Source: Siphonodentalium dalli (taxonomy: Eukaryota; Mollusca; Scaphopoda; Gadilida; Siphonodentaliidae). Taken from it: a stretch of 64,000 nt of DNA. Shown here one piece after another: positions 12,186 through 60,975 of this stretch. Position 1 is the first letter of the stretch; every line of letters begins with the position of its first letter. The stretch is taken from contig CP136069.1 of assembly GCA_032622095.1 (NCBI GenBank), positions 155,797,043 through 155,861,042 of the forward strand, given 5' to 3'. The position numbers and the translations under genes are program-made. The notes beneath the pieces were generated by a model that made no database searches, was not told the origin of the DNA, and worked only from the letters and a program-made list of their open reading frames with translations.

Positions 12186-12206
12186 CCCGTCTTCTGGGAA
12201 GTATAG

Positions 12207-22500: not shown

Positions 22501-25131
22501 CCATTATGGTAAACCCAAACATGGTATGCAAATATCCAAACATTATACCATGGTAAAACCATGGTTACCATGCATCTATATATACTAAGTAAACAATGAT
22601 GATTACGACGGGTGATTACCAGCCCTCGTCCACAGAAGCTGCCGGCAGACAATAGCTACCTGAGAGACGCCCAGATGGACCCTCCTGTCAGGAGATCGGA
22701 GTCAGCAGACCAGGGGAGACCGACATCACCACAGCCACCCACGGCAGACTTCGTGTTGGAGATGGATACACTTCCACCAAAGACACCGAAATACCATCAC
22801 AGCTCGGTGTCTTCCATTTCCACCAGTATCATCAGTAGCTCCGTCTCCTCACAGCGGTGGAGCAGACAGCTATTATGGCCAGGGTTGAGGCAGAGTAAAA
22901 GTGACAAGTTCAGGACATCCTAGATGAATGTAAAATGAATATTGACAACACTCATATCTCAGCCACCAGTTTGCCACCACCACAACCAACAACAACAACA
23001 ACTACATCAACAGGGAAAAAGTGAAGAAGAAAAAGAGAAGGAAGTAACAACAAAAATGGCCCTTCCGTATCATCCCGGGTCCACCCCCAAATCCCTAATG
23101 AAGGATGATCCCTGGTTCGTCTGAGTACATAATTAAAAATCTACCATTTACTTTAATTTCGGCGAAGCACCAGTCACAATGTCCACGTCTAGGAATCTGT
23201 TGTTTGTGTTTGTTTGTCTGTTTTGTTTTTGTTTTTGTTTTTGTTTTTTTGTAGCGCGCGTTGGCCTTGTAATCATTACATTAAAACAACAGTTTCGCTG
23301 TTGGACTTTCAGGTAATGTGGAAATCCTCGCCGGAGCGACTCTGGATCACGAAACTGTTACGAGCTACAAGCTGTGGATCCAATGCACCGCGGCAGCCAC
23401 TGGACTTACAAGCACCGCCCACACGACCTTCACCTTGGAAATAGCTAACGTCAACGAACCCCCAGTTAACACAGGAGAGGCGTCCACAACAGTGACTTTA
23501 ACGGAGGGTACCGTTGTAAGTTGAATTGCATATCGAAACAATTTTTTTTCTTCTGATGAATAGTATTTACTCCCATTCAAAATATAATAAATATATAATA
23601 CATATTACTAAGCTCCTTGTGTATACAATGTGGGCATATAGTAGATTAATAATTGCTGTCTCCGGGTGTGCCTCTATCTTCGATATCATTATATGCATGT
23701 ATAACAGATAGTTTTCCATACCAGGGCTAATTTAATTAGTTTAAAGTAGTCAATTTAGAAGTTATACCAACCAATGGAAGTCGTATATGATATAGGCAAC
23801 TCAGATATCAGTTTTCGAGAAAAACACAACCTTAGTCGAGCGCATTCGGAATTTTGGGGGTAAATTTAAGTTTCATTCAGCACTGTTCGAGAATTTTGTT
23901 TTGAAAACGTGGACCAATCTATTTGGGTCACTCTACCCGTGACGTGTTTTGATAGTAAAAACCCTAAATCCCTATCCAGTAACTCTAATAAAGACATCTT
24001 TCCAAACATACCGTACATCGATAAAGGAAAACGATATGCGGGTAGGAGTTAACTGCGATGCGGGCAAAAGTCTTGCCCACTTCGGGGATTATTCCGACAC
24101 CGTGGAGTGTCACATGCAATTGTCAATATTTTCCTACTTCAATGCAGCAAATTTCACCAATGTGAATGCAGATTTAGTTTCCTAAACTATCTGTAACAAA
24201 TTAACAATGGACAGTTGGCAATGTTGTCACCACGCACTCATCGTGGAGCTGAAAACACACAGAATTGAAACGTGGAAGCTTATCCTCACACTTCATCGAG
24301 TATTTTGTCACTTTATGGAAATGTATTTATCGAACTGTTGACAGTTGGTTGAAGCTGGGGTCATCAAGCACATCGTGGGTCCTGAGTTGAGTCCGAAGAA
24401 AAACAATTAACAACATTTCCCTCAAAACAAACAAACCTACACCTGTGGTCTTCACTCGTGCCCGCAACGGTTTTTGGTTTAAATATATTTTAATAGTATG
24501 ATGATATACAGATACTAAGGGATTGGAGGACAAGTTCTTAAAACTTAGATGGACCTCCGATCCCCACAATACAGAATAAGTATAACAACAAATATAAACA
24601 GCATATTAAACAGAATAGGTTTGGCATGACGGGTGCATGTATACAATAATAATTGAATATATTTACATACTAAGTGTGATTATCACTAAATCCAGCATAC
24701 CGATTGGTCGGCGCCCACGTGACTAGTTGCAATTATTTATGGGTGAACGCGCAAGAGCTCATAACTGCAACCCCATAATTACATCGACGCGTCATCGATT
24801 TCGGAAATAAGAACGCGTAATGTTTTGGGCGCATTTGGACTCGCGCAGGATTGACTTAATAAATAATCAGATTTCAATATAAAGAGTCTGGTTGTTCCTG
24901 TTAACTTTTGCCAAGGGTGCTATGGGATATTTTGGGCTGGTTTTGTCATGATACACTTTTCGATTTAAATTTTGGGTTTTACATACAAGTTATGACCACT
25001 TACCTCACGGTTACATCTCCATAAAAACAGTCCACATGACAGTTAATCCTTATATGAATAACTATACTATTAAGTATTACTGGTGAGTGATAGTGTGGTG
25101 GTGGGGGGTTAAGTGTGGGTACATTCAATCA

Positions 25132-25185
<54 letters not shown>

Positions 25186-28100: not shown

Positions 28101-31100
28101 ACGATTGAAACAAGGAACTATATGTTCTCAAATAACAGACAAGACTTGAGCCGAAAACAACTCGCTGCATTCCCGTCCGAATAATATCGATCGATCTGCA
28201 GATCGAGTGGGTTTTTCCCGAACGTATGTCAAGGACGAAACAAAACATTAATAAACTTTTGATCAAAATTAAACATTATTAGCAGAATTTTGGAAGAGGA
28301 AAATATACAGTTAGTCTCCATGTCAACTGGGAATCATGAACATGCGATAATCAAAAAGTTTAGTGAGCATTTTCTTACAGGAATCATCCTATCTATCGGC
28401 AATGAGCCAAATACTTTTCAATTTTCTATTTTTCGCACAGTCATTTTGTGTCATTGTGATTTTACCGAGAAACAAGTTTTCAGAAGAATTAAATCATCAT
28501 GGCATTTAAGGAATTTTAAGATGATTTATTTTTCAAAAACTAATATATTTGGTAAAATTTAAAGTGATTATTGAATCGCTTGTGTCCAGATAATGCAGAC
28601 ACGTAAACCTTTAACACTTTTTAACATATCGGTATACTGAGACGAGTAGAAGAAATATCCTGCGGTTTTCCCACAGGGACGTTACATTATTTGTAACACC
28701 AATCAACGAGTGGTCTCTGTGGATCTCAGAAATCATGTGTATAGCGGTCGCTTTGTAAATATAGAAGGCCGATGACTTCTCTGATCGAGAGGTCACGGTC
28801 GTTACACGCCTTGTGTGATAACCGAAGTTAAGCAATGTCGGGCGCGGTTATTCCATGGATGTGTGACCGGCTTGGGATTCCGGGTGCTGCCAACTTTCGG
28901 TGCGACTCCCACACTTCTCTCTCACTCTCTCTCGTTCTGTTACACATGTAACGTAATGCTTCGTAACAATTTATCGCTACACTGAGACGAGTTGAAAAAA
29001 TATACTGCAGTTTTCTCACCGGGACTTTATATCATTTTTAACACAGTCCTGTCTACGAGCGATCACTGTGGATCTCTGAAATCATATAACGATTCGTAAC
29101 ACTTTGTAACATATCGCTGCATTGAGATGAGTTTTAATAATATGCTGCGGTTTTGGGGGGGGGACTTAATATCATTTGTAACATGTACCGGTAACGCCTC
29201 ATAACACTTTGCAACATATCGCTACAATAAAAGGAGGTGAAGAAACATTGAACGCTGCATTTTTTTTTACGGGGACTTTGTAAGTTTCAGTTTGTAGGGC
29301 CAGTCTCTGTGGAATCTCAGAAATCATGAAACGCTTTGTACATATCGTTACACTGAGACGAAGGGAAAAAATATGTTGCAGTTTTCTCACGGGACTGTTA
29401 CAATGTTTGGGGACATCTGTAAACAGTAATTAAAAATTTCATCCTATAATTTAAATTGTAGTGCCCAGAATATATAACCACTAAATTTAATACTCTTACC
29501 ACAGGAGCTTGGAACTTGATCAATAACTGCCTTAATTATGCTAATTAGCATTTTTTTTGGCCCAGCATTATGGCAAAAAAAATGGTAATTAGGCTAATTA
29601 ATGCAATTATTAAATTAATCAAGTTCCACACTCCTGTGGTCTTACAAAATGACAAGTGGTGCCTGCTGGGAAAATGTAAATAAAATTATAAATGAAACGA
29701 AAACTAAAAAGTTGTGTATGTTTAGTCATGCATTTCGTAACGAAACGTCGCAAATACGACCAAATTTACACTCTGTAAACAGCTTGGGAATGTTTATTAT
29801 ATTTTGAGCATTGTCTTTAATTGGATAGTTATTTATTATTCTTTTATTGGCTTTCATAGCGTTCGTGAAAAAAAATGTGTACTGCGAAGCGAGTGCGAAG
29901 AAAATAGCGTCCTTAGTTACTATGCAACGGACTACAAATATCATTGCGCGCAAGTACTTTTGGGTCGTTTTTGTTGCACTGATAAATCTCGACCTAATGT
30001 AATTATCCGATATAATTACATTAGCTTTGATAAACTCAACGGCAATTTACTATAGAAAATGAAGTGGGTGTAATTATGACATTATCATGTATATCACTAC
30101 AGGCTTGTACTCCCAATACGACTGGATTATGACATTAACATATCGATCATTACAGGCTGGTAATCACATTATGACATTATCATATCTATCATTACAGGCT
30201 GGTACTCTCATTACGATTATTATGACATTATCACATCTGTCATCACAGGCTTTTACTCCCATTACTCACATTATGACATTATCACATCTATCACTACAGC
30301 CGGTACTTCCATTATGACATTATTATATCTATCATTACAGACTGGTACTCCCATTACTCCATTATGACATGATCACATATATCATTACATGCTGGTACTC
30401 CCATTACTCCCAATATGACATCACAACTATCATTACAGTCTGGTATCCCCACTGCTCACATTAATACATTACCACAGCTATCATTACAGGCTAGTACTCT
30501 CATTATGACATTATCACATATATCATTACAGGCTGGCACTCCCAATACTCCCATGATGTCATTATCACATCTATCATTACAGGCTGGTACTCCCGTTACT
30601 CACATTATGACATTATCATATATATCATTACAGGCTGACACTACCATTACTCCCATTATGACATTATCACATCTATCATTACATGCTAGTACTCCCATTA
30701 CTCCCATTATGTCATTATCACATCTACCATTACAGCCTGGCACTCCCATTACTCCCATTATGACATTATCACACCTATCATTACAGGCTGGTACTCCCGT
30801 TACTCACAGTAACACATTATTACATCTATCATTACAGGCTGGTACTCCCGTTACTTACATTATGACATTATCACATATACCATTACAGCCTGGCACTCCC
30901 ATTACTCCCATTATGACATTATCAAACCTATCATTACAGGCTGGTACTCCCGTTACTCACATTATCACATTAACACATCTATCATTACAGGCTGGTATCC
31001 CCACTGCTCACATTAATACATTATCATATATAGCATTACAGACTGGCACTCCCATTACTCCCCTTATGACATTATCACATCTATCATTACAGCCTGGCAC

Positions 31101-34100
31101 TCCCATTACTCCCATTATGACATTATCACACCTATCATTACAGGCTGGTACTCCCGTTACTCACATTATGACATTATCACATCTAGCATTACAGGCTGGT
31201 ACTCCCGTTACTCACATTATGACATTATCACATATACCATTACATGCTGGTACTCCCAGTATGACATTATCACATCTATCATTACAGTCTAGCACTCCCA
31301 TTACTCCCATTATGACATTATCACATCTATCATTACAGTCTTGCACTCCCATTACTCCCGTTATGACATTATCACATCTATCATTACAGTCGGGCACTCC
31401 CATTACTCACATTATATCATTACAGTCTAGCACTCCCATTACTCCCATTATGGCATTATCACATCTATCATTACAGTCTGGCACTCCCATTACTCCCATT
31501 ATGACATTATCACATCTATTATTACAGTCTGGCACTCCCATTACTCCCGTTATGACATTATCACATCTATCATTACAGTCGGGCACTCCCATTACTCTCA
31601 TTATGACATTATCACATCTATCATTACAGTCGGGCACTCCCATTACTCCCATTATGACATTATCACATCTATTATTACAGACTGGTACTCCCATTATGAC
31701 ATTATCACATCTATTATTACAGGCTGGTACTCACATTACTCACATTATGACATTATCACATATATCATTACAGGCTGGTACTCCCAGTGTGACATTATCA
31801 CATTTATCATTACAGTCTAGCACTCCCATTACTCCCATTATGGCATTATCACATCTATCATTACAGTCTGGCACTCCCATTACTCCCATTATGACATTAT
31901 CAAATCTATCATTGCAGGCTGGTACTCCCGTTACTCACATTATGACATTATCACATATATCATTACAGCCTGACACTCACATTACTCCCATTATGACATT
32001 ATCATATCTATCATTACAGTCTGGCACTCCCATTACTCACATTATGACATTATCAAATCTATCATTACAGGCTGGTACTCCCGTTACTCACATTATGACA
32101 TTATCACATATATCATTACAGGCTGGTACTCCCATTATGACATTATCACATATATCATTACAGTCTAGCACTCCCATTACTCACATTATGGCATTATCAC
32201 ATCTATCATTACAGGCTGGTACTCCCGTTACTCACATAAATTATGACATTATTACATATATCATTACAGGCTGGCACTCCCAGTGTGACATTATCACATT
32301 TATCATTACAGTCTAGCACTCCCATTACTCCCATTATGGCATTATCACATCTATCATTACAGCTGGTACTCCCGTTACTCACATAAATTATGACATTATC
32401 ACATATATCATTACAGGCTGGCACTCCCGATACTCACATTATGACATTATCACAGCTATCATTACAGGCTGGTACTCCCGTTACTCACATTATGACATTA
32501 TCACATCTATCACTACAGTATAGCACTCCCATTACTCACATTATGACATTATCACATCTATCATTACAGGCTGGTACTCCCATTATGACATTATCACATT
32601 TATCATTACAGGCTGGTACTCCCTTTACTCCCATTATGACATTATCACATCTATCATTACAATCTGGCACTCCCATTACTCACATTATGACATTATCACA
32701 TCTATCGTTACAGGCTGGTACTCCCATTATGACATTATCACATTTATTATTACAGTCTGGCACTCCCATTACTCCCAGTATGGCATTATCACATCTATCA
32801 TTACAGGCTGGTACTCCCGTTACTCACATTATGACATTATCACAGATATCATTACAGGCTGGTACTCACTTTACTCCCATTATGACATTATCACATCTAT
32901 CGTTACAGACTGGTACTCCCAATACTCCCAGTATGACATTATCACATTTATCATTACAGTCTAGCACTCCCATTATGCCATTATCACATCTATCATTACA
33001 GTCTGGAACTCCCATTATGACATTGTCACATCTATCATTACAGGCTGGGACTCCCTTTACTCCCATTATGACATTATCACACCTATCATTACAGGCTGGT
33101 ACTCCCGTTACTCACAGTAACACATTATCACTTCTATCATTACAGGCTGGTACTCCCATTACTCCCATTATGACATTATCACATCTATCATTACAGGCTG
33201 GTACTCCCTTTGCTCACATTATGACATTATCACATCTAGCATTACATGCTGGTACTCCCATTATGTCATTATCACATCTATCATTACAGACTTGTAGTCC
33301 CATTACTCCCATTATGACATTATCACATATATCATTACAGTCGGGCACTCCCATTACTCACATTATGACATTATCACACCTATTATTACAGGCTGGTACT
33401 CCCTTTACTCACATTATGACATAATCACATCTATCATTACAGGCTGGCACTCCCATTACTCACATTATGACATAATCACATCTATCATTACAGGCTGGTA
33501 CTCCCTTTGCTCCCATTATGACATTATCACATCTATCATTACAGGCTGGCACTCCCATTACTCCCATTATGACATTATCACACCTATCATTACAGGCTAG
33601 CACTCACATTACTCCCGTTATGACATTATCACACATATCATTACAGTCTGGTACTCCCTTTACTCACATTATGACATAATCACATCTATCATTACAGGCT
33701 GGTACTCCCATTACTCACATTATGACATTATCACATCTAGCATTACATGCTGGTACTCCCTTTACTCACATTATGACATTATCACATCTATCATTACAGG
33801 CTGGTACTCCCTTTACTCCCATTATGACATTATCACAACTATTATTACAGTCTAGCACTCCCATTACTCCCATTATGACATTATCACATCTATCATTACA
33901 GGCTGGTACTCCCAGTATGACATTATCACATCTATCATTACAGACTGGTACTCCCAGTATGACATTATCACATTATCACACCTATCATTACAGACTGTAC
34001 TCCCATTATGACATTATCACATCTATCACTACAGACTGGTACTCCCTTTACTCCGATTATGACATTATCACATATATCATTACAGGCTAGTACTCCCTTT

Positions 34101-37100
34101 ACTCCCATTATGACATTATCACATCTATCATTACAGACTGGTACTCCCATTACTCCCATTATGACATTATGACATCTATCATTACAGACTGGTACTCCCA
34201 TTACTCCCATTATGACATTATGACATCTATCATTACAGACTGGTACTCCCTTTACTCCCATTATGACATTATCACATCTATCATTACTGGCTGGTACTTC
34301 CATTACTCCCATTATGACATCATCACATATATCATCACAGACCGGTACTCCCATTACTCCCATTATGACATTATCACACCTATCATTACAGGCTGGTACT
34401 CCCAGTATGACATTATCACATCTATCATTACAGACTGGTACGCCCTTTACTCCCATTATGACATTATCACACCTATCATTACAGGCTAGTACTCCCATTA
34501 TGACATTATCACATCTATCATTACAGGCTAGTACTCCCATTATGACATTATCACATCTATCATTACAGGCTGGTACTCCCATTATGACATTATCACATCT
34601 ATCATTACAGGCTGGTACTCCCAGTATGACATTATCACATTATCACACCTATCATTACAGACTGTACTCCCATTATGACATTATCACATCTATCACTACA
34701 GACTGGTACTCCCTTTACTCCCATTATGACATTATCACATATATCATTACAGGCTAGTACTCCCTTTACTCCCATTATGACATTATCACATCTATCATTA
34801 CAGACTGGTACTCCCATTACTCCCATTATGACATTATGACATCTATCATTACAGACTGGTACTCCCATTACTCCCATTATGACATTATGACATCTATCAT
34901 TACAGACTGGTACTCCCTTTACTCCCATTATGACATTATCACATCTATCATTACTGGCTGGTACTTCCATTACTCCCATTATGACATCATCACATATATC
35001 ATCACAGACCGGTACTCCCATTACTCCCATTATGACATTATCACATCTATCATTACAGACTGGTACTCCCAGTATGACATTATCACATCTATCATTACAG
35101 ACTGGTACGCCCTTTACTCCCATTATGACATTATCACATCTATCATTACAGGCTGGTACTCCCAGTATGACATTATCACATCTATCATTACAGGCTGGTA
35201 CGCCCTTTACTCCCATTATGACATTATCACACCTATCATTACAGGCTAGTACTCCCATTATGACAGTATCACAGCTATCATTACAGGCTGGTACTCCCTT
35301 TACTCCCATTATGACATTATCACACCTATCATTACAGTCTGGCACTCCCATTACTCCCATTATAACATTATCACATCTATCATTACAGACTGGTACTCCC
35401 ATTACTCCCATTATGACATTATCATTACAGGCTGGTACTTCCATTACTCCCATTATGACATCATCACATATATCATCACAGGCTGGTACTCCCTTTACTC
35501 CCATTATGACATAATCACAGCTATCATTACAGGCTGGTACTCCATTTACTCCCATTATGACATTATCACAGCTATCATTACAGGCTGGTACTCCTTTTAC
35601 TCACATTATGACATGATCACAGCTATCATTATAGGCTGGCACTCCCGTTACTCACATTATGAGATTATCACAGCTATCATTACAGGCTGGCACTCCCGTT
35701 ACTCACATTATGACATTATCGCAGATATCATTACAGGCTGGTACTCCCGTTACTCACATTATCACATCTATCATTACAGGCTGCTACTCCCAATACTCCC
35801 ATTATGGCATTATCACATAGATCATTACAGTCTGGCACTCCCATTACTCCCATAATGACATTATCACATCTATCATTACAGCCTGACACTCACATTACAC
35901 ACTTATGACATAATCACATCTATCATTACAGGCTGGTACTCCCAGTATGACATTATCACATCTAGCATTACAGGCTGTTACTCCCATTACTCCCATTATG
36001 ACATTATCACATCTAGCATTACATTATGGCACTCCCATTACTCCCATTATGACATTATCACCTCTATCATTACAGGCTAGTACTCCCTTTACTCCCATTA
36101 TGACATTATCACATCTAGCATTACATTATGGCACTCCCATTACTCCCATTATGACATTATCACATCTATCATTACAGGCTGGTACTCCCATTACTCACAT
36201 TATGACATTATCACATCTATCATTACAGACTGGTACTCCCTTTACTCCCATTATGACATTATCACATCTATCATTACAGGCTGGTACTTCCATTACTCCT
36301 ATTATGACATCATCACATATATCATTACAGGCTGGTACTCCCAGTATGACATTATCACATCTATCATTACAGGCTGGTACGCCCTTTACTCCCATTATGA
36401 CATTATCACCCCTATCATTACAGGCTAGTACTCCCATTATGACAGTATCACAGCTATCATTACAGGCTGGTACTCCCTTTACTCCCATTATGACATTATC
36501 ACACCTATCATTACAGTCTGGCACTCCCATTACTCCCATTATAACATTATCACATCTATCATTACAGACTGGTACTCCCATTACTCCCATTATGACATTA
36601 TCACATCTATCATTACAGGCTGGTACTTCCATTACTCCCATTATGACATCATCACATATATCATCACAGGCTGGTACTCCCTTTTCTCCCATTATGACAT
36701 TATCACAGCTATCATTACAGGCTGGTACTCCCTTTACTCACATTATGACATTATCACAGCTATCATTACAGGCTGGTACTCCCTTTACTCCCATTATGAC
36801 ATTATCACAGCTATCATTACAGGCTGGTACTCCCTTTACTCACATTATGACATGATCACAGCTATCATTATAGGCTGGCACTCCCGTTACTCACATTATG
36901 AGATTATCACAGCTATCATTACAGGCTGGCACTCCCGTTACTCACATTATGACATTATCGCAGCTATCATTACAGGCTGGTACTCCCTTTACTCACATTA
37001 TGACATGATCACAGCTATCATTACAGGCTGGTACTCCCTTTACTCCAATTATGACATTATCACAGCTATCATTACAGGCTGGTACTCCCTTTACTCACAT

Positions 37101-40100
37101 TATGACATGATCACAGCTATCATTATAGGCTGGCACTCCCGTTACTCACATTATGAGATTATCACAGCTATCATTACAAGCTGGCACTCCCGTTACTCAC
37201 ATTATGACATTATCGCAGCTATCATTACAGGCTGGTACTCCCGTTACTCACATTATCACATCTATCATTACAGGCTGGTACTCTCATTACTCCCATTATG
37301 ACATTATCACATAGATCATTACAGTCTGGCACTCCCATTACTCCCATTATGACATTATCACATCTATCATTACAGCCTGACACTCACATTACTCACTTAT
37401 GACATAATCACATCTATCATTACAGGCTGGTACTCCCAGTATGACATTATCACATCTAGAATTACAGGCTGGTACTCCCATTACTCCCATTATGACATTA
37501 TCACATCTAGCATTACATTATGGCACTCCCATTACTCCCATTATGACATTATCACATCTATCATTACAGGCTGGTACTCCCATTACTCACATTATGACAT
37601 TATGACATCTATCATTACAGACTGGTACTCCCTTTACTCCCATTATGACATTATCACATCTATCATTACAGGCTGGTACTTCCATTACTCCCATTATGAC
37701 ATTATCACATCTATCATTACAGACTGGTACGCCCTTTACTCCCATTATGACATTATCACATCTATCATTACAGGCTGATACTCCCTTTACTCACATTATG
37801 ACATTATCACAGCTATCATTACAGGCTGGTACTCACTTTACTCCCATTATGACATTATCACACCTATCATTACAGTCTGGCACTCCCATTACTCCCATTA
37901 TAACATTATCACATCTATCACTACAGACTGGTACTCCCATTACTCCCATTATGACATTATCACATCTATCATTACAGGCTGGTACTTCCATTACTCCCAT
38001 TATGACATCATCACATATATCATCACAGGCTGGTACTCCCTTTACTCATATTATGACATTATCACACCTATCATTACAGGCTGGTACTCCCAGTATGACA
38101 TTATCACATCTATCATTACAGACTGGTACGCCCTTTACTCCCATTATGACATTATCACACCTATCATTACAGGCTAGTACTCCCATTATGACATTATCAC
38201 ATCTATCATTACAGGCTAGTACTCCCATTATGACATTATCACATCTATCATTACAGGCTGGTACTCCCATTATGACATTATCACATCTATCATTACAGGC
38301 TGGTACTCCCAGTATGACATTATCACATTATCACACCTATCATTACAGACTGTACTCCCATTATGACATTATCACATCTATCACTACAGACTGGTACTCC
38401 CTTTACTCCCATTATGACATTATCACATATATCATTACAGGCTAGTACTCCCTTTACTCCCATTATGACATTATCACATCTATCATTACAGACTGGTACT
38501 CCCATTACTCCCATTATGACATTATGACATCTATCATTACAGACTGGTACTCCCATTACTCCCATTATGACATTATGACATCTATCATTACAGACTGGTA
38601 CTCCCTTTACTCCCATTATGACATTATCACATCTATCATTACTGGCTGGTACTTCCATTACTCCCATTATGACATCATCACATATATCATCACAGACCGG
38701 TACTCCCATTACTCCCATTATGACATTATCACATCTATCATTACAGACTGGTACTCCCAGTATGACATTATCACATCTATCATTACAGACTGGTACGCCC
38801 TTTACTCCCATTATGACATTATCACATCTATCATTACAGGCTGGTACTCCCAGTATGACATTATCACATCTATCATTACAGGCTGGTACGCCCTTTACTC
38901 CCATTATGACATTATCACACCTATCATTACAGGCTAGTACTCCCATTATGACAGTATCACAGCTATCATTACAGGCTGGTACTCCCTTTACTCCCATTAT
39001 GACATTATCACACCTATCATTACAGTCTGGCACTCCCATTACTCCCATTATAACATTATCACATCTATCATTACAGACTGGTACTCCCATTACTCCCATT
39101 ATGACATTATCATTACAGGCTGGTACTTCCATTACTCCCATTATGACATCATCACATATATCATCACAGGCTGGTACTCCCTTTACTCCCATTATGACAT
39201 AATCACAGCTATCATTACAGGCTGGTACTCCATTTACTCCCATTATGACATTATCACAGCTATCATTACAGGCTGGTACTCCTTTTACTCACATTATGAC
39301 ATGATCACAGCTATCATTATAGGCTGGCACTCCCGTTACTCACATTATGAGATTATCACAGCTATCATTACAGGCTGGCACTCCCGTTACTCACATTATG
39401 ACATTATCGCAGATATCATTACAGGCTGGTACTCCCGTTACTCACATTATCACATCTATCATTACAGGCTGCTACTCCCAATACTCCCATTATGGCATTA
39501 TCACATAGATCATTACAGTCTGGCACTCCCATTACTCCCATAATGACATTATCACATCTATCATTACAGCCTGACACTCACATTACACACTTATGACATA
39601 ATCACATCTATCATTACAGGCTGGTACTCCCAGTATGACATTATCACATCTAGCATTACAGGCTGTTACTCCCATTACTCCCATTATGACATTATCACAT
39701 CTAGCATTACATTATGGCACTCCCATTACTCCCATTATGACATTATCACCTCTATCATTACAGGCTAGTACTCCCTTTACTCCCATTATGACATTATCAC
39801 ATCTAGCATTACATTATGGCACTCCCATTACTCCCATTATGACATTATCACATCTATCATTACAGGCTGGTACTCCCATTACTCACATTATGACATTATC
39901 ACATCTATCATTACAGACTGGTACTCCCTTTACTCCCATTATGACATTATCACATCTATCATTACAGGCTGGTACTTCCATTACTCCTATTATGACATCA
40001 TCACATATATCATTACAGGCTGGTACTCCCAGTATGACATTATCACATCTATCATTACAGGCTGGTACGCCCTTTACTCCCATTATGACATTATCACCCC

Positions 40101-43100
40101 TATCATTACAGGCTAGTACTCCCATTATGACATTATCACATCTATCATTACAGGCTAGTACTCCCATTATGACATTATCACATCTATCATTACAGGCTGG
40201 TACTCCCATTATGACATTATCACATCTATCATTACAGGCTGGTACTCCCAGTATGACATTATCACATTATCACACCTATCATTACAGACTGTACTCCCAT
40301 TATGACATTATCACATCTATCACTACAGACTGGTACTCCCTTTACTCCCATTATGACATTATCACATATATCATTACAGGCTAGTACTCCCTTTACTCCC
40401 ATTATGACATTATCACATCTATCATTACAGACTGGTACTCCCATTACTCCCATTATGACATTATGACATCTATCATTACAGACTGGTACTCCCATTACTC
40501 CCATTATGACATTATGACATCTATCATTACAGACTGGTACTCCCTTTACTCCCATTATGACATTATCACATCTATCATTACTGGCTGGTACTTCCATTAC
40601 TCCCATTATGACATCATCACATATATCATCACAGACCGGTACTCCCATTACTCCCATTATGACATTATCACATCTATCATTACAGACTGGTACTCCCAGT
40701 ATGACATTATCACATCTATCATTACAGACTGGTACGCCCTTTACTCCCATTATGACATTATCACATCTATCATTACAGGCTGGTACTCCCAGTATGACAT
40801 TATCACATCTATCATTACAGGCTGGTACGCCCTTTACTCCCATTATGACATTATCACACCTATCATTACAGGCTAGTACTCCCATTATGACAGTATCACA
40901 GCTATCATTACAGGCTGGTACTCCCTTTACTCCCATTATGACATTATCACACCTATCATTACAGTCTGGCACTCCCATTACTCCCATTATAACATTATCA
41001 CATCTATCATTACAGACTGGTACTCCCATTACTCCCATTATGACATTATCATTACAGGCTGGTACTTCCATTACTCCCATTATGACATCATCACATATAT
41101 CATCACAGGCTGGTACTCCCTTTACTCCCATTATGACATAATCACAGCTATCATTACAGGCTGGTACTCCATTTACTCCCATTATGACATTATCACAGCT
41201 ATCATTACAGGCTGGTACTCCTTTTACTCACATTATGACATGATCACAGCTATCATTATAGGCTGGCACTCCCGTTACTCACATTATGAGATTATCACAG
41301 CTATCATTACAGGCTGGCACTCCCGTTACTCACATTATGACATTATCGCAGATATCATTACAGGCTGGTACTCCCGTTACTCACATTATCACATCTATCA
41401 TTACAGGCTGCTACTCCCAATACTCCCATTATGGCATTATCACATAGATCATTACAGTCTGGCACTCCCATTACTCCCATAATGACATTATCACATCTAT
41501 CATTACAGCCTGACACTCACATTACACACTTATGACATAATCACATCTATCATTACAGGCTGGTACTCCCAGTATGACATTATCACATCTAGCATTACAG
41601 GCTGTTACTCCCATTACTCCCATTATGACATTATCACATCTAGCATTACATTATGGCACTCCCATTACTCCCATTATGACATTATCACCTCTATCATTAC
41701 AGGCTAGTACTCCCTTTACTCCCATTATGACATTATCACATCTAGCATTACATTATGGCACTCCCATTACTCCCATTATGACATTATCACATCTATCATT
41801 ACAGGCTGGTACTCCCATTACTCACATTATGACATTATCACATCTATCATTACAGACTGGTACTCCCTTTACTCCCATTATGACATTATCACATCTATCA
41901 TTACAGGCTGGTACTTCCATTACTCCTATTATGACATCATCACATATATCATTACAGGCTGGTACTCCCAGTATGACATTATCACATCTATCATTACAGG
42001 CTGGTACGCCCTTTACTCCCATTATGACATTATCACCCCTATCATTACAGGCTAGTACTCCCATTATGACAGTATCACAGCTATCATTACAGGCTGGTAC
42101 TCCCTTTACTCCCATTATGACATTATCACACCTATCATTACAGTCTGGCACTCCCATTACTCCCATTATAACATTATCACATCTATCATTACAGACTGGT
42201 ACTCCCATTACTCCCATTATGACATTATCACATCTATCATTACAGGCTGGTACTTCCATTACTCCCATTATGACATCATCACATATATCATCACAGGCTG
42301 GTACTCCCTTTTCTCCCATTATGACATTATCACAGCTATCATTACAGGCTGGTACTCCCTTTACTCACATTATGACATTATCACAGCTATCATTACAGGC
42401 TGGTACTCCCTTTACTCCCATTATGACATTATCACAGCTATCATTACAGGCTGGTACTCCCTTTACTCACATTATGACATGATCACAGCTATCATTATAG
42501 GCTGGCACTCCCGTTACTCACATTATGAGATTATCACAGCTATCATTACAGGCTGGCACTCCCGTTACTCACATTATGACATTATCGCAGCTATCATTAC
42601 AGGCTGGTACTCCCTTTACTCACATTATGACATGATCACAGCTATCATTACAGGCTGGTACTCCCTTTACTCCAATTATGACATTATCACAGCTATCATT
42701 ACAGGCTGGTACTCCCTTTACTCACATTATGACATGATCACAGCTATCATTATAGGCTGGCACTCCCGTTACTCACATTATGAGATTATCACAGCTATCA
42801 TTACAAGCTGGCACTCCCGTTACTCACATTATGACATTATCGCAGCTATCATTACAGGCTGGTACTCCCGTTACTCACATTATCACATCTATCATTACAG
42901 GCTGGTACTCTCATTACTCCCATTATGACATTATCACATAGATCATTACAGTCTGGCACTCCCATTACTCCCATTATGACATTATCACATCTATCATTAC
43001 AGCCTGACACTCACATTACTCACTTATGACATAATCACATCTATCATTACAGGCTGGTACTCCCAGTATGACATTATCACATCTAGAATTACAGGCTGGT

Positions 43101-46100
43101 ACTCCCATTACTCCCATTATGACATTATCACATCTAGCATTACATTATGGCACTCCCATTACTCCCATTATGACATTATCACATCTATCATTACAGGCTG
43201 GTACTCCCATTACTCACATTATGACATTATGACATCTATCATTACAGACTGGTACTCCCTTTACTCCCATTATGACATTATCACATCTATCATTACAGGC
43301 TGGTACTTCCATTACTCCCATTATGACATTATCACATCTATCATTACAGACTGGTACGCCCTTTACTCCCATTATGACATTATCACATCTATCATTACAG
43401 GCTGATACTCCCTTTACTCACATTATGACATTATCACAGCTATCATTACAGGCTGGTACTCACTTTACTCCCATTATGACATTATCACACCTATCATTAC
43501 AGTCTGGCACTCCCATTACTCCCATTATAACATTATCACATCTATCACTACAGACTGGTACTCCCATTACTCCCATTATGACATTATCACATCTATCATT
43601 ACAGGCTGGTACTTCCATTACTCCCATTATGACATCATCACATATATCATCACAGGCTGGTACTCCCTTTACTCATATTATGACATGATCACAGCTATCA
43701 TTATAGGCTGGCACTCCCGTTACTCACATTATGAGATTATCACAGCTATCATTACAGGCTGGCACTCCCGTTACTCACATTATGACATTATTGCAGCTAT
43801 CATTACAGGCTGGTACTCCCGTTACTCACATTATCACATCTATCATTACAGGCTGGTACTCCCATTACTCACATTATGACATTATCACATCTATCATTAC
43901 AGTCTGGCACTCCCATTACCCCCATTATGACATTATCACATCTATCATTACATGCTGGTACTCCCATTACTCACATTATGACAGTATCACACCTATCATT
44001 ACATGCTGGAACTCCCATTATGACATTATCACATCTAGCATTACAGTATGGCACTCCCATTACTCCCATTATGACATAATCACATCTATCATTACAGGCT
44101 GGTACTCCCATTACTCACATTATGACATTATCACACCTATCATTACAGGCTGGTACTCCCATTATGACATTATCATATCTGTCATTACAGGCTGGCACTC
44201 CCATTACTCACATTATGATATTATCACATCTATCATTACAGGCTGGTACTCCCTTTACTCACATTATGACATTATCACATCTATCATTACAGGCTGGCAC
44301 TACCATAACTCCCATTATGACATTATCACATCTATCATTACAGACTGGCACTCCCATTACTCACATTATGATATTATCACATCTATCATTACAGTCTGGC
44401 ACTCCCATTACTCCCATTATGACATTATCACACCTATCATTACAGTCTGGCACTCCCATTACTCCCATTATGATATTATCACATCTATAATTACAGGCTG
44501 GCACTCCCATTACTCCCATTATGACATTATCACATCTATCATTACAGGCTGGTACTCCCATTATGATATTATCATATCTATCATTACAGGCTGGCACTCC
44601 CATTACTCACATTATGATATTATCACATCTATCATTACAGGCTGGTACTCCCATTACTCCCAATATGACATTATCACACCTATCATTACAGGCTGGTACT
44701 CCCATTATGATATTATCATATCTATCATTACAGGCTGGCACTCCCATTACTCACATTATGATATTATCACATCTATCATTACAGTCTGGCACTCCGATTA
44801 CTCCCATTATGACATTATCACACCTATCATTACAGTCTGGCACTCCCATTACTCCCATTATGATATTATCACATCTATCATTACAGTCTGGCACTCCCAT
44901 TACTCCCATTATGATATTATCACATCTATAATTACAGGCTGGCACTCCCATTATGACATTATCACATCTATCATTACAGGCTGGTACTCCCATTATGATA
45001 TTATCATATCTATCATTACAGGCTGGCACTCCCATTACTCACATTATGATATTATCACATCTATCATTACAGTCTGGCACTCCGATTACTCCCATTATGA
45101 CATTATCACACCTATCATTACAGTCTGGCACTCCCATTACTCCCATTATGATATTATCACATCTATCATTACAGTCTGGCACTCCCATTACTCCCATTAT
45201 GATATTATCACATCTATAATTACAGGCTGGCACTCCCATTATGACATTATCACATCTATCATTACAGGCTGGTACTCCCATTATGATATTATCATATCTA
45301 TCATTACAGGCTGGCACTCCCATTACTCACATTATGATATTATCACATCTATCATTACAGGCTGGTACTCCCGTTACTCACATTATCACATCTATCACTA
45401 CAGTCTGGTACTCCCATTACTCCCATTATGACATTATCACACCTATCATTACAGGCTGGTACTCCCATTATAACATTATCACATCTATCACTACAGTATG
45501 GCACTCCCATTACTCCCATCATGACATTATCACACATACCATTACAGGCTGGTACTCCCATTATGACATTATCACATCTATCATTACAGTCTAGCACTCC
45601 CTTCACTCCCATTATGACATTATCACATCTATCATTACAGACTGGTACTCCCATTATGACATTATCATATATATCATTACAGGCAGACACTCCCATTACT
45701 CACATTATGATATTATCACATCTATCATTACAGGCTGGTACTCCCGTTACTCACATTATCACATCTATCATTACAGGCTGGTACTCCCATAACGACTGGA
45801 TTTTCATTCATTCATTCTCCGATCCCATGATCCCATTATCACATCTATCATTACAGCCTGACACTCACATTACACACTTATGACATAATCACATCTATCA
45901 TTACAGGCTGGTACTCCCAGTATGACATTATCACATCTAGCATTACAGGCTGTTACTCCCATTACTCCCATTATGACATTATCACATCTAGCATTACATT
46001 ATGACACTCCCATTACTCCCATTATGACATTATCACATCTATCATTACAGGCTGGTACTCCCATTACTCACATTATGACATTATCACATCTATCATTACA

Positions 46101-49100
46101 GACTGGTACTCCCTTTACTCCCATTATGACATTATCACATCTATCATTACAGGCTGGTACTTCCATTACTCCTATTATGACATCATCAAATATATCATTA
46201 CAGGCTGGTACTCCCAGTATGACATTATCACATCTATCATTACAGGCTGGTACGCCCTTTACTCCCATTATGACATTATCACACCTATCATTACAGGCTA
46301 GTACTCCCATTATGACAGTATCACAGCTATCATTACAGGCTGGTACTCCCTTTACTCCCATTATGACATTATCACACCTATCATTACAGTCTGGCACTCC
46401 CATTACTCCCATTATAACATTATCACATCTATCATTACAGACTGGTACTCCCATTACTCCCATTATGACATTATCACATCTATCATTACAGGCTGGTACT
46501 TCCATTACTCCCATTATGACATCATCACATATATCATCACAGGCTGGTACTCCCTTTTCTCCCATTATGACATTATCACAGCTATCATTACAGGCTGGTA
46601 CTCCCTTTACTCACATTATGACATTATCACAGCTATCATTACAGGCTGGTACTCCCTTTACTCCCATTATGACATTATCACAGCTATCATTACAGGCTGG
46701 TACTCCCTTTACTCACATTATGACATGATCACAGCTATCATTATAGGCTGGCACTCCCGTTACTCACATTATGAGATTATCACAGCTATCATTACAGGCT
46801 GGCACTCCCGTTACTCACATTATGACATTATCGCAGCTATCATTACAGGCTGGTACTCCCGTTACTCACATTATCACATCTATCATTACAGGCTGGTACT
46901 CCCATTACTCCCATTATGACATTATCACATAGATCATTACAGTCTGGCACTCCCATTACTCCCAATATGACATTATCACAACTATCATTACAGCCTGACA
47001 CTCACATTACTCACTTATGACATAATCACATCTATCATTACAGGCTGGTACTCCCAGTATGACATTATCACATCTAGAATTACAGGCTGGTACTCCCATT
47101 ACTCCCATTATGACATTATCACATCTAGCATTACATTATGGCACTCCCATTACTCCCATTATGACATTATCACATCTATCATTACAGGCTGGTACTCCCA
47201 TTACTCACATTATGACATTATGACATCTATCATTACAGACTGGTACTCCCTTTACTCCCATTATGACATTATCACATCTATCATTACAGGCTGGTACTTC
47301 CATTACTCCCATTATGACATTATCACATCTATCATTACAGACTGGTACGCCCTTTACTCCCATTATGACATTATCACATCTATCATTACAGGCTGGTACT
47401 CCCTTTACTCACATTATGACATTATCACAGCTATCATTACAGGCTGGTACTCACTTTACTCCCATTATGACATTATCACACCTATCATTACAGTCTGGCA
47501 CTCCCATTACTCCCATTATAACATTATCACATCTATCACTACAGACTGGTACTCCCATTACTCCCATTATGACATTATCACATCTATCATTACAGGCTGG
47601 TACTTCCATTACTCCCATTATGACATCATCACATATATCATCACAGGCTGGTACTCCCTTTACTCATATTATGACATGATCACAGCTATCATTATAGGCT
47701 GGCACTCCCGTTACTCACATTATGAGATTATCACAGCTATCATTACAGGCTGGCACTCCCGTTACTCACATTATGACATTATTGCAGCTATCATTACAGG
47801 CTGGTACTCCCGTTACTCACATTATCACATCTATCATTACAGGCTGGTACTCCCATTACTCACATTATGACATTATCACATCTATCATTACAGTCTGGCA
47901 CTCCCATTACCCCCATTATGACATTATCACATCTATCATTACATGCTGGTACTCCCATTACTCACATTATGACAGTATCACACCTATCATTACATGCTGG
48001 AACTCCCATTATGACATTATCACATCTAGCATTACAGTATGGCACTCCCATTACTCCCATTATGACATAATCACATCTATCATTACAGGCTGGTACTCCC
48101 ATTACTCACATTATGACATTATCACACCTATCATTACAGGCTGGTACTCCCATTATGACATTATCATATCTGTCATTACAGGCTGGCACTCCCATTACTC
48201 ACATTATGATATTATCACATCTATCATTACAGGCTGGTACTCCCTTTACTCACATTATGACATTATCACATCTATCATTACAGGCTGGCACTACCATTAC
48301 TCCCATTATGACATTATCACATCTATCATTACAGACTGGCACTCCCATTACTCACATTATGATATTATCACATCTATCATTACAGTCTGGCACTCCCATT
48401 ACTCCCATTATGACATTATCACACCTATCATCACAGTCTGGCACTCCCATTACTCCCATTATGATATTATCACATCTATAATTACAGGCTGGCACTCCCA
48501 TTACTCACATTATGATATTATCACATCTATCATTACAGTCTGGCACTCCCATTACTCCCATTATGACATTATCACACCTATCATTACAGTCTGGCACTCC
48601 CATTACTCCCATTATGATATTATCACATCTATAATTACAGGCTGGCACTCCCATTACTCCCATTATGACATTATCACATCTATCATTACAGGCTGGTACT
48701 CCCATTATGATATTATCATATCTATCATTACAGGCTGGCACTCCCATTACTCACATTATGATATTATCACATCTATCATTACAGGCTGGTACTCCCATTA
48801 TGATATTATCATATCTATCATTACAGGCTGGCACTCCCATTACTCACATTATGATATTATCACATCTATCATTACAGGCTGGTACTCCCGTTACTCACAT
48901 TATCACATCTATCACTACAGGCTGGCACTCCCATTACTCCCAATATGACATTATCACACCTATCATTACAGGCTGGTACTCCCATTATGATATTATCATA
49001 TCTATCATTACAGGCTGGCACTCCCATTACTCACATTATGATATTATCACATATATCATTACAGTCTGGCACTCCCATTACTCACATTATGATATTATCA

Positions 49101-52100
49101 CATATATCATTACAGTCGGGCACTCCCATTACTCACATTATGACATTATCACACCTATCATTACAGTCTGGCACTCCCATTACTCCCATTATGATATTAT
49201 CACATCTATAATTACAGGCTGGCACTCCCATTACTCCCATTATGACATTATCACATCTATCATTACAGGCTGGTACTCCCATTATGATATTATCATATCT
49301 ATCATTACAGGCTGGCACTCCCATTACTCACATTATGATATTATCACATCTATCATTACAGGCTGGTACTCCCGTTACTCACATTATCACATCTATCACT
49401 ACAGTCTGGTACTCCCATTACTCCCATTATGACATTATCACACCTATCATTACAGGCTGGTACTCCCATTATAACATTATCACATCTATCACTACAGTAT
49501 GGCACTCCCATTACTCCCATCATGACATTATCACACATACCATTACAGGCTGGTACTCCCATTATGACATTATCACATCTATCATTACAGACTGGTACTC
49601 CCATTATGACATTATCACATCTATCATTACAGACTGGTACTCCCATTATGACATTATCATATATATCATTACAGGCAGACACTCCCATTACTCACATTAT
49701 GATATTATCACATCTATCATTACAGGCTGGTACTCCCGTTACTCACATTATCACATCTATCATTACAGGCTGGTACTCCCATAACGACTGGATTTTCATT
49801 CTCCGATCCCGACGACGTTGACACACTTCGGTATTCGGTTGTAGGAGGAACTGGATCCGGACTTGTATATGTACCGAACTCCAATTTGCCAAACCTTGCG
49901 GTGATGACAACTCTTAATTACGATGCCGCATCACCATGTAAATCAGTGATATTCCAAGCCAGTAAGTGGAAGGATATATAGACCAATTTATATACCCGCC
50001 CGGTTTAAATAGTCTGAATCATCACTAGATTTTTGATGAGGCACACCAGGGTATCGAACAGTGTTCACGATTGGCCTAATTAAAAAAAACTTTGGCCAAA
50101 TTAAATCCTCATTTTCTGGTCTCACAATGAATGCATATTTTGTTTTATTCGACATCTAACATTCTATAATTATGTCCATCTCTTCAAATACCGTGTCTAG
50201 ACTCTTTATACCACGATCGCCTATCTTACTATATAAATAAAGCCATCTGTTTAAATTTTACATTTAATCAACACCTGTTGATTAAACGTGCCTACTGTTG
50301 ATTAAACTTTGCAGAGTGGTTTAAACTTTCTCCATACAATTTTAACGTAAAGGTGTTTATCCATCGCATGAACTATGATACGTTTGACTTTCATGACCCG
50401 GACAAGTGCACCGGTGTGAGTTATTTTTAGCGATGACATCTCGCGGACACAATTGGACTTAATGTCCTTAATCGGTTCATTATACAAACAAAAACCGAAA
50501 ATAAACGCTAAGGAAGACATTTTAATGCCTGTTGTATCGCAGTTGTTACAAATAACACAATACAGTATGTTTTTCTCAATATATTTTTCTCTCGAATAAC
50601 TTAAAATGAACAAGTTACGGACATTGGAAAGTACGTTTCGGGTGTAAACACATTGTAAAGATCGTGGCATAAACAAAATATACGCATAGTGTTTCTGAAT
50701 AACAAATTTAATCCACTCGTGGGATTGGCGATTTACACAACTCGCTGAAGCTCGTGGTGTAAATCGCCAAACCCACGAGTGGATTAAATTTGTTATTCAG
50801 AAACACTATGCGTATTATCTATATTTAATCCTACCAGTGTTACTTGACAATATACCACTACCCACCATCTGCCATTCAGCCTTATGACAGACAAAGGATT
50901 AATTAGAGTTAATCATCATTACCGATTTACCCATTAAGCTCTATCACCTACTCAATTAGTAGATGATCATACCATATATTTGATTCTCACGTCATTCCCG
51001 TTACAAAATCAATTTGTGTTTTGGAATTATATTTCCGATTTTGGGAGGTTAGCAAAACTTTGGTCAAAAGTTTGCTATTTGAAATTTATTCAGCCATTTT
51101 CGAGAAAAAAAATGGCTTATATGTGGGCAGGGGCGGTCAGGAACACATTTCTGGACACTAGGCGCAAAAACTAAATTCCGCCCTCTGTGTACCCACCACC
51201 AAATAATTTGAATTTTTCCGATTATCGGATAGGGACCCACCCCCCCCCCCCAAACTGCTTCAAAAGACTATTTTACTCAGTTTTCCAGATATTATCCGAT
51301 CTATGGTCCGTATGATGATTATAGAAGCATTCCTACTTGTATTTACCAGCAAGACTAATTTTTCAAAACAACTCTCCAATATATGTTGGCTGGCGGCCAT
51401 TTTTGTTTTAAACAAATTTTTGTGGAAAAAGGAAGGATCCCATCTAGAGGTCACATCGAAGATCCATGTGAAGTTTGGTAACGATTGTATGAGAAATGCG
51501 ACATGTAAGGTGTGCTAAATAAAGGATTTAGTCATACAAAGAGTAAAATCCAAGATGGCCGCTGGCAGTCATGTTTTTTTTACAAAATTCGGGGGAAAAA
51601 TGGTAGGCACACATAGAGAGGTCACACCGAGGATCTATATGAAGTTTGGTGATGATCGGATGAGGGATACGCTATGTCGGGTGTTTTAAAGGATTTATTG
51701 ATGCAAAAAGTAATATCCCAGAGATGGCTGCGTCAGCCAATTTTTATCATCGAAATTCGTTCGAATTTGACAGCTACCATCTAAAGGTGATCCTAGACCA
51801 TAAACCCATATACCAAATATCGTTGAAATCTGTCAAGTTTTTTAACGCCTTTGTTTTGGTTTTAATAGTCTAATTTTATTTGAAGAGTTTACATTTATTT
51901 GAATAATCTATTGTTGTGTTATGTTTTCATTTATATCAGGTTGAATAAATGATTTTTAATAGAACTATTCAAATCTGAGCCTATCCATGTCAATGTGCAT
52001 TGATAGATTCTTGATGAAAACATTTAGCAAACTGACCTTTTGTATTATCCATTGGTGTCATCCCTCGTTATTATCTGATCGTGAACCAAACACATTACCA

Positions 52101-55100: not shown

Positions 55101-58100
55101 TGGTTAAACAATTGTCCGTCTTCTCTAGAGTGTTATACCTGTGATGGACCTCAAGATTTCCCCCAACGCAGGGGCTATGATCCCCAACACGGTGGCTATA
55201 TTATTCTGGAAGCTACCGGACTGACCATTGTATAATTCATCGAAAGGGGAGGGGGCATGCACCACCTATAGTCCTGACCCTCATCAAGCCACTCCTGACT
55301 TATACATATTGTAGTTGACAGTCATGTCTGTTTGCTACGAGTGATTAATCTAATATGCAGCAATGTATGGTATTCATATTACTGTGAACATATTATTACA
55401 GCTTAAAATTTAAATGTACAGAATGTGGTGTTGCTGTGTGTCTTCGTTCGGGAAAAAGGGTTACGAGTTCCAAACTACGTCACATTTCCTCTCTTGTGTT
55501 ATACATGTACATGTATACGCAAAATTTACACCTATGGAATAAAGTAAAACATTATATTGTACATTCTTGCCCAGATAATCCCGGCTCTAACTCACTACTT
55601 AGTTATGCGAAGCTTTCTAGAACCAGCCCTCTACCCAATCACGGATTATGGTCGAAAATGTTATAATTCAAACCTGTACAGGCTAAAATTGTGACAGTTA
55701 TGAACTTTTTCAACCTTTGGCTTGAGAAACATATACTTTTCTGTAAATTCCGGGTGAAAAATGGGGGGGGGGTGTGTCACTCTTTTTAATTACAACGCTG
55801 TACCTGCATTAATTTGTAATGGATATTTGAATGGAAATCCCAATTGAATGTTATCACATGAGCTCGCTCTCAAATTATCCGAGCAATCTCAACAAACCGA
55901 TATCGTCAAATTCTGCATAGTTTTAATTCTGTTTTGGATGACCCTGTTTCCAAGAAACGAGGAGAAACAAATCAATTATAAAATCAACGGACTCAAATCC
56001 ACTTTTCGAAATCAATTAAAACTCGTGAAAAACAGCAACATATATCAGACAGGATTTATTCATTTCGGCATCCATGAAAGAACACATGTTTATAACTGGC
56101 CTGAAATTTATTGATAGCAGTTAGTTTGATAATAGCTTATAAAAACTCACTGGTCTCGCCTGTTGAAATGGACCGATCGCGCGTAGGTGATTAATGCTAT
56201 CGATGATTGTTTTTACCATGTAAAATACATGGATTTTACATACAGAAATTACCTACAAGTGTGTATTCACCCTTATATATTTCTTATATATGCGCTACGG
56301 GCGACTCGCATATGTAAGACAATGCATTGGCACAGGGTTTTCGCAAAATTCAGGAAGCTCCCGTCATGAAATGGTTTATCAAGTCATGGCTTGTAGGGCT
56401 AGAGCCGAACTATCGGCCAATTTATTTTATTGTATTTAAAATTCCCACATATTTGCATCAATGAAAGGATCCGAGAATTCGACCCAGGAGACCCTAAGAC
56501 TGTCTCTGTTGGCATAATTACCACCATCAATCGAAAGAAAAAACAATATAATGATAGGCAAAGGAATAAAAACATAAATAGGAGAATATTCAGGAGATCG
56601 GTCACGCGATGATTGTTGGTGTTGGCCATTTTGGTTGGCCTAGCTCTTCCTATTACGACCACTGTACCGGCCGGAAACATTATTTACAGTGCCACATTTC
56701 TACTCTCAGTTTTAGCTTTTTCGGTTTTGTCAAAAAATAATAATTGTGACGTTTCAAAATCAGATAGTAGACTATTAACGCCTTGTGATCGTTATAAGTT
56801 TATAATTGATTGGATAATCCATTAAGTATCGTCTGTTGTTTCAGCTGACAGTGGAGGGCTCACGGCCATATCAACGATGACTGTTTGCATAGACAAGAAC
56901 GATAACTCCCCCATATTCTCTGCCAGATTTTATATCGGAGCCACAGATCAATTGGACGCGGCTGTTAACGGCACCATATTAGCGACAGTCGTTGCTACGG
57001 ATGCGGATACGTCATCACAAAACAATCAGGTGAGGCAACGTACTCCTGGTCGTGGCGAAAGGGGGGGGGGCACATTATGCTGGATAATATATTATATTGT
57101 TGAGTATTGAAATTATTTGCACACAATTTCCACCAAATTACATGTTATTCCCAGTTAGTCGTTATGACTCAATCCTGGTCATTTTGACTAACATAACTGT
57201 AGTATAATAGCCTAATAAACTAACTATCATCCTAGTCGTTGTGACTAATTGTACGCCTTTGTCATTATGATTAAGCTAAGTTAATCATCCTGTTGACAAA
57301 CAGTTTTCTAACTAGTCAACTTAAGTTAGTCATATTGACTAACTTTGTTTCTTCAGTCTTCAAAGGGAATTCCCCTCTAGCCACGCCCATGAATGCTCTC
57401 GGTGACAATCAATATAGTACCTATATCTAGTGTCAAACATTATGTAGTCGCAGTGGCTCGATTTCTATTGTGCACCTATAAATCGACCTTTCCACAGCTG
57501 TCAATCAAATATATTAGCAGATATTAGCGACTGAGCTGGTCGTTTTGCTGTTTATTCCGACGCCTTCTTTATTTGGATATACAATATGCCATACATTTAT
57601 GCAATAATTATACTTAGATTGAATGGATGTTTAGTTAACTCAGATTTCGATGCGGTGCGATTATATTTGATTGGCATGGTGCTATACATGGAATTGGCAA
57701 AATTTCAGCAGAAGTGTGTAGTTCTAGAAAAGGCACTAGCCTTCTCACCATAGTACCCAACTGGCAAATATATTCCATTTATTCCCAACAAACTGAACAC
57801 GATTTGTACGTTATTTATTCACCTCTCCTGAGCTAGTAATATGGACTGAGATGGACCGCCCATACATAGAATTTAGCGAGACTTGAATACCAATTTCTGG
57901 AACCTATACCGGGTTCTACCAATAACCAGTGTGAATCGTTACAGTTACAAGTCTGCATCCTATCTGTCCCCTCTTGTGGTATCCGTATACTGAAATTTGC
58001 CTTCAAATACCCACATGTATGATTGATTATTGCGAGACAATTGCGCGTAAATTTACAGGCAAATTGCGATAGCAAACCGGCAAATTATTGAGCTTTTATT

Positions 58101-58645: not shown

Positions 58646-58851
58646 CTTTTACTCCACGTTTGCACGTCCAATGTTTATCTGTTTTTGAAAGGTTACAGTG
58701 GTGTGAATATTTGTCCAAATAGTCATCAGTGCAAACGTTTGGAGTATATCGTTTTCATTGTGACCATCAAGTGATCAAGATCTTAATTAAATCATCTAAC
58801 ATCTCAGTGAAAGATTCATAGTTCTGGTAACTAAAACTGAACTTCATGCAT

Positions 58852-59260
58852 CGTGGTCCAGTTGTTAGCGTGTCGGACTTGTATTCGCTGTAAACACGTC
58901 GATATGGGTTCGCAGCGCGTCGCCGGTCATTGAGTCTCCACTGAGCAGTGGCTTGGCCGCTTTGAGCGACGTACAATTGTCGGATTGCTCGCTGTTTCAA
59001 AACCCGCGCCAAGTTGTGACCCTTGACCAAGGTCGCTCGTACTGTGTCGGCTTCGCATCACTCATGCGTTAAAAGAGTACCAGTCAGTCTGTCAAATTGA
59101 TGAATATCAGAGAATGTTCTGATCAAACTAGAGCAGCACCTGCAATAGCTGCAGCCGGTACATTGGTTGGCTTGTACAAATGCTTGGGGTAATATTGTAC
59201 CAAGCGTGTTAGAGCAAGTAATTGCTTAATCGCTATATAAAACTGGTCATTATTATTATT
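58852..59260 (+). mobile_element. tRNA-derived SINE
   Basis: The head GTGGTCCAGTTGTTAGCGTG contains an A-box-like TGGTCCAGTTG, and GGGTTCGCAGC is a B-box-like match about 40 bases on. The body ends GCTATATAAAACTGGTCATTATTATTATT, the short-repeat tail typical of metazoan SINEs. Copy A has no counterpart between CATGCATCG and TTTAAAACCCG, so it is an insertion in copy B. Confidence 0.75.
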
Positions 59261-59340
59261 TAAAACTCGGGTCATTTGTGACGAGAGTTAGAGCTTCAAT
59301 AAATGTTTTATGCCATTATCACACCACACCAACTTGTCAC

Positions 59341-60845: not shown

Positions 60846-60849
60846 TGGA

Positions 60850-60975
60850 TCCGAACCGAGCCTACTAATAGTGTGTCCGTTATTTTCAGAATGAGGTTCC
60901 CAGATGATGAATTTAGTGATGCTACCCCACACCGCGGGCTAGCATCAAAAAATTCACCCTCTGTGGACCACATAT
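60850..60975. repeat. Stem-loop of the CAGAATGAGG family, copy B
   Basis: Counterpart of 12055-12185: TTCAGAATGAGGTTCCCAGATGATGAATTTAGTGATGCTA with the near inverse TAGCATCAAAAAATTCACCCTCTGTGGACC. Confidence 0.7.

Follow-up and report, generated by a model that had tools for sequence, protein, structure and literature searches.

How does splicing settle on one acceptor when a single intron offers several hundred that look nearly the same? The ranking of equal 3' splice sites by the spliceosome is usually studied with a few engineered copies. The question is raised in nature by a 64,000-nucleotide stretch of the scaphopod Siphonodentalium dalli (assembly GCA_032622095.1, contig CP136069.1, positions 155,797,043 to 155,861,042; the whole stretch is called the window here), in which intron 3 of a cadherin gene ends in a long tandem array of its own boundary with exon 4. 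One intron presents 376 AGs in acceptor context, a natural test of acceptor choice, and what is new here is that only the last of them gives an open reading frame. We interpret the array as a giant 'mirage', a minisatellite formed by repeated tandem duplication of the gene's own intron-exon boundary, with the last acceptor used by virtue of its position, and we give this interpretation a probability of about 0.78. The elements of the array are as follows.

30073..49768, plus strand: tandem array of the intron 3/exon 4 boundary, with 402 unit positions, 376 of them with AG; the last is the working site at 49768/49769
30073..30128, plus strand: 5' edge unit; the 26 nt after its acceptor (30102/30103) resemble the opening 26 nt of exon 4, and they include ACGACTGGATT, which extends past the repeat consensus
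45777..45826, plus strand: copy of the beginning of exon 4, truncated, within the array and with its own AG
49726..49768, plus strand: last unit, 43 bp, frame-breaking, ending in the working acceptor

The original prediction, made from the sequence letters, described a 19.7-kb minisatellite adjoining exon 4, with some 400 near-identical acceptor modules in series. Both points were borne out by Tandem Repeats Finder (30167-49782, period 51, 399.9 copies) and by an anchor search allowing at most 9 mismatches in 23, which yielded the 402 unit positions and the 376 AGs at the acceptor place; a stricter search (at most 7 mismatches in 23) returned 400 and 374. The array starts at about 30073, and its last unit abuts the exon 4 junction, for a total of 19.7 kb. 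The unit consists of the end of the intron followed by CAG/GCTGGTACTCCC, thereby spanning the host gene's own intron-exon boundary. Among the 401 spacings of the 9-mismatch search, 294 are 51 bp, 71 are 42 bp, 13 are 43 bp, 12 are 50 bp, and 11 have other lengths. The 42-bp unit is the 51-bp unit minus one 9-bp block in the Tandem Repeats Finder consensus units, and because of this difference most spacings are multiples of 3 (366 of 399 in the 7-mismatch search).

The units are similar without being uniform: 169 distinct sequences occur among 401. The array also holds 175 AGs away from the acceptor position. The 23-mer TATCATTACAGGCTGGTACTCCC has 106 exact copies on the plus strand of 30073-49800, none on the minus strand of the array, and none elsewhere in the window on either strand. 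One 23-mer searched in viral and bacterial/archaeal contig collections gave 0 exact matches, a result that is uninformative for any animal genome. TATGAC had been claimed for every unit; we count 322 copies, hence it is not present in each, and it is absent from the working last unit, which is an ordinary 43-bp type.

The exons on both sides of the array, in the numbering of the original prediction, form the following model.

20137..20322, plus strand: cadherin exon 2
23313..23515, plus strand: cadherin exon 3, donor GTAAGT
49769..49961, plus strand: cadherin exon 4, 193 nt, donor GTAAGT
56845..57029, plus strand: cadherin exon 5
58343..58645, plus strand: cadherin exon 6, with the stop codon and a hydrophobic C-terminus

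Joined with GT-AG borders, these five exons give 355 open codons, and in this gene model intron 3 measures 26.3 kb and intron 4 measures 6.9 kb. The spliced protein matches the Pfam family Cadherin (PF00028) at 9.1e-19 and CELSR1 (8vy2) with a whole-sequence E-value of 1.1e-33, the best stretch covering residues 40-307. The exon 3/4 join, after residue 129, falls inside this stretch. A homologue search found three proteins at 28-29% identity; in the alignments to two of the three there is no gap at the join, and both are without 4 residues starting 7 residues downstream. Against CELSR1, one residue of difference lies near the join. By its predicted protein the gene is a cadherin, and the proposal that joining exon 3 to the last AG (23515/49769) restores an open cadherin frame held, with the CELSR1 match crossing the join.

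Which of the acceptors in the array could serve this gene? Reading was started at every AG in the phase that exon 3 sets, and the 26 unit positions lacking AG were excluded. Of the 376, the last AG alone keeps the frame open across exon 4; another 270 shift the frame, and the remaining 105 stay in phase yet run into a stop. All of the other 375 meet a stop: 363 do so inside the array, and 12 within exon 4, over 55 nt upstream of the exon's donor. Since the stops are so placed, decay would be predicted for the transcripts. The nearest upstream acceptor adds 43 nt and shifts the frame, because the last unit is 43 bp.

Two expectations about these sites are partly changed by the counts. The array had been suggested as a possible source of alternative transcripts: unproductive ones are possible, but the case for useful isoforms is weakened, as 0 of the other 375 AGs are open through exon 4. 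The sites had also been called equal. This describes the immediate surroundings of the acceptor, where 76 of the 402 positions including the real site, that is 75 others, are identical over -20 to +3; over -40 to +12, however, identity is confined to 5 of 402, that is just 4 others. From these features the array looks like a field of neutral decoys passed over by splicing, and not like a source of protein isoforms.

Exon 4 sequence inside the array bears on where the units came from. In the 5' edge unit, GCTTGTACTCCCAATACGACTGGATT stands against GCTGGTACTCCCATAACGACTGGATT of exon 4. Over +13 to +27, this unit matches exon 4 at 12 of 15 positions and the copy at 45777 at 15 of 15, while ordinary units reach at most 9. 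From -172 to +33, the copy at 45777 does not differ from the real site; a small ATTC expansion follows, and then a junction back into the repeat. The junction of the 5' edge unit (...ACTGGATT/ATGACATT) has ATT in common with the intron (...GTAATT/ATGACATT), which would suit a short seed duplication. The first tenth of the units is the most divergent, with 3.93 mismatches against 2.33-2.90, and at the 3' edge no escape from homogenisation is seen. When ten 81-nt exon-boundary pieces were checked as array seeds, tandem repetition was found for the exon 4 acceptor alone; the two exon 6 pieces had one further copy each. A search of the window yielded no second copy of exon 2, 3 or 5, and for exon 4 nothing but the 45777 fragment. 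The derivation of the array from the exon 4 acceptor, as originally proposed, gains from the 5' edge unit and the internal copy, and growth from exon 4's own acceptor boundary is well supported.

Much of the copy number comes from internal duplication on the kilobase scale, which includes the following blocks.

34472..38059, plus strand: first copy of a 3588-bp block, identical to 40099-43686
40099..43686, plus strand: second copy of the 3588-bp block
41484..45826, plus strand: first copy of a tandem duplication of about 4 kb, ending in the exon 4 fragment; its partner runs from 45832 to about 49808

Exact internal repeats of 3588, 2083 and 1973 bp were found, and a base-by-base recheck of the first two showed no difference. 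In all, 71% of the array is covered by exact repeats that measure 300 bp or more, and later exact copies of at least 300 bp make up 45% of it. The duplication of about 4 kb is not exact: an alignment of 41484-45826 with 45832-49816 gives 3901 matches and 57 mismatches, about 98.6% identity, where about 10 of the mismatches and a final 2-bp gap reflect misalignment in the last 25 or so columns (the ATTC expansion, with the chosen end slightly too far). Its internal gaps are 102, 255, 9, 9, 8, 9, 9 and 9 bp. With mismatches and gaps of this kind, the duplication looks evolved rather than an assembly stutter.

The source and the length of the array could be explained otherwise. An unrelated satellite might have invaded intron 3 and supplied the exon 4 acceptor, or come to resemble it. 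We regard this as improbable, since an invader leaves unexplained the exon-only sequence at the 5' edge and at 45777; moreover, AGTPI, the first residues of exon 4, hold a normal place in the cadherin domain in the alignments to two homologues and to CELSR1. A different doubt concerns length. The long exact repeats may have arisen by block amplification in the very recent past, or assembly error may account for a part of them; in the latter case they would be duplicated contig sequence and the real copy number would be lower. The exact repeats of 3588, 2083 and 1973 bp and the 45% share of later copies speak for such an artefact, as does the aberrant draft assembly reported for one lancelet mirage in PMC3087553. 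Simple over-assembly, on the other hand, is unlike an array with 169 distinct unit sequences and unlike a duplication at about 98.6% identity with unit-sized indels. Even when all later exact copies of at least 300 bp are removed, 221 of the 402 unit positions remain, 207 of them with AG. We therefore hold a partial artefact to be a possibility of some weight, though not a probable one.

Other alternatives give the array a function. It might act as a regulator, with leaky upstream acceptors giving unproductive transcripts and the array length tuning the amount of cadherin; the premature stop from every one of the 375 alternative acceptors and the frameshift of 43 nt from the next upstream site are what such a device would produce. 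We notice, however, that consensus in the two AG columns (0.99 and 0.95) does not clearly exceed that in the other 42 compared columns (0.64 to 1.00, most above 0.9), so that no selection for acceptor function is seen. The frame-breaking last unit is likewise no rarity: of the 401 spacings, 33 cannot be divided by 3, and for 18% of the 401 unit positions no productive site would lie within the 6 kb upstream. Regulation thus seems unlikely to us. Selection on the acceptor AG was set aside for want of a clear excess of conservation, and selection for a frame-breaking last unit was not significant. A more specific version, a length-variable splicing rheostat in which several hundred unproductive acceptors compete with the last and allele length sets the cadherin amount, we would hold as slightly less likely again. 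If it were true, the 45777 fragment would be a natural control, sharing the acceptor and the beginning of the exon with the real site but lacking the exon body. The array could also be imagined as coding, with extended forms of exon 4 that would add repeats of 14 or 17 residues to the second cadherin domain. Spacings in multiples of 3 (366 of 399) and stop-free stretches of up to 647 codons favor this idea. Both have a simpler source, as units of 51 and 42 bp differ by a single 9-bp block, hence the multiples of 3, and two frames of the consensus unit are without stops; with 0 of 375 upstream AGs reading through to exon 4, we give the idea almost no credence and reject a coding function for this sequence.

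We return to the giant mirage and the history that it would imply. A short duplication across the acceptor and the first 26 or so nt of exon 4, with a junction sharing ATT, may have been the seed. Units would then have multiplied by slippage and unequal exchange, and blocks of units by duplications of 2-4 kb, one of which extended into exon 4 and left the exon fragment at 45777. Tandem duplication across an acceptor keeps the 3'-most junction intact, and the gene could for this reason survive each step of growth. The array in this way shows why growth is tolerated: the last junction stays whole.

Position rather than local sequence most probably decides the choice of the last acceptor, because this is the sole site beside the exon 4 body and a strong donor, and exon definition would apply where both flanking introns are long. 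According to PMC9225289, sites nearest across the exon are favored between long introns. Use of an upstream copy would lengthen exon 4 by one or more units and bring a premature stop. On the sequence, our expectation is that the last site is used predominantly and that some leakage reaches the copies closest upstream of it. If the last site proves to be used almost always, the local acceptor sequence could not be the reason; that would have to be the position next to a donor-bearing exon. The copy at 45777 is a built-in control for this, being identical from -172 to +33 but without the exon body and donor.

Several observations weigh against this interpretation. In PMC9225289 itself, the upstream of two competing acceptors is preferred overall, a preference described as reduced, not as reversed, between long introns. 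The second cadherin domain submitted alone had no Cadherin match, only Big_9 at 5.8e-4, below its cut-off. The direction of origin is read from the array itself. The donor count speaks for the interpretation: GT sites with at least 7 of 9 matches to MAG/GTRAGT number 0 of 423 in 30073-49740 and 59 of 1196 in 10001-30000. As one unit is repeated, this contrast amounts to nearly a single observation. CAGGT, AATAAA and ATTAAA do not occur in the array. Hidden exons inside the array were rejected on the missing donor matches in 30073-49740 and the missing CAGGT.

The remainder of the window holds further features of the gene and its surroundings. In 16001-20130, a simple scan turned up no first exon, the criteria being an ATG, a hydrophobic start and a donor that fits. 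The protein encoded up to the end of exon 6 (58343-58645) stops after a short hydrophobic tail and has no cytoplasmic domain beyond it; it is perhaps a lipid-anchored cadherin. Exon 6 has a further copy at 9497-9784 (94% identity), and colinear blocks of 80-92% identity in 7228-12205 match 57076-61008; this upstream region represents the 3' end of a tandem gene duplicate. Repeated blocks (78-86%) at 17233-18513 and 21396-22222 flank exon 2 and are possibly a mobile element. Another minisatellite, at 14755-15996, has a 47-bp unit in 26 copies, most with CAGGTG, and no adjoining exon was recognised by eye. Two separate short arrays of 131-bp tandem repeats occupy 1779-2126 and 2451-2825. Pfam gave no match for five other open stretches, and known RNA families and tRNAs were absent from the window at default thresholds.

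How does the cadherin array compare with known systems? The name 'mirages', which the original prediction did not mention, was given to minisatellite-like duplications of intron-exon borders in the lancelet (amphioxus) globin genes BflGb6 and BflGb9 and in Adh3 (PMC3087553). The cadherin array likewise has minisatellite repeats over an intron-exon boundary, many units with splice signals. As in BflGb6, where two haplotypes carry 6 and 3 units of 150-160 bp, the 3' end of the intron and the 5' part of the exon are repeated; its units, mostly 51 and 42 bp, are of minisatellite size like those of Adh3 (10-72 bp). For the lancelet mirages, regular splicing, variable lengths and cluster edges that escape homogenisation are reported; here the 5' edge unit keeps exon sequence absent from ordinary units, whereas the 3' edge is ordinary. 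Lancelet PGBD5 also has tandem repeats over splice sites, and troponin C is named too (PMC3902484), but the PGBD5 copies are few and imperfect.

Minisatellites able to cross exon-intron boundaries are known as well from the internal tandem repeats of human genes in segmental duplications, with units of 30 bp on average and 4 copies over the whole set (PMC2812944). Those human repeats yield novel introns or coding repeats, whereas the cadherin array has no productive alternative frame. The satellites in introns of Drosophila Y genes are not known to contain the intron's own acceptor. The gigantic satellite-containing introns of these genes (PMC6508621, PMC11207136) share with intron 3 a large size swollen by tandem repeats. 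A literature search of open papers, which did not cover the founding Adh3 paper, found no larger mirage. The kind of array is already known, and it is the size that stands out. With the structural features of the lancelet mirages, but with 402 unit positions over 19.7 kb, block duplications on the kilobase scale and an internal exon fragment, the cadherin array, known here from one sequence, would be an extreme member of the mirage kind.

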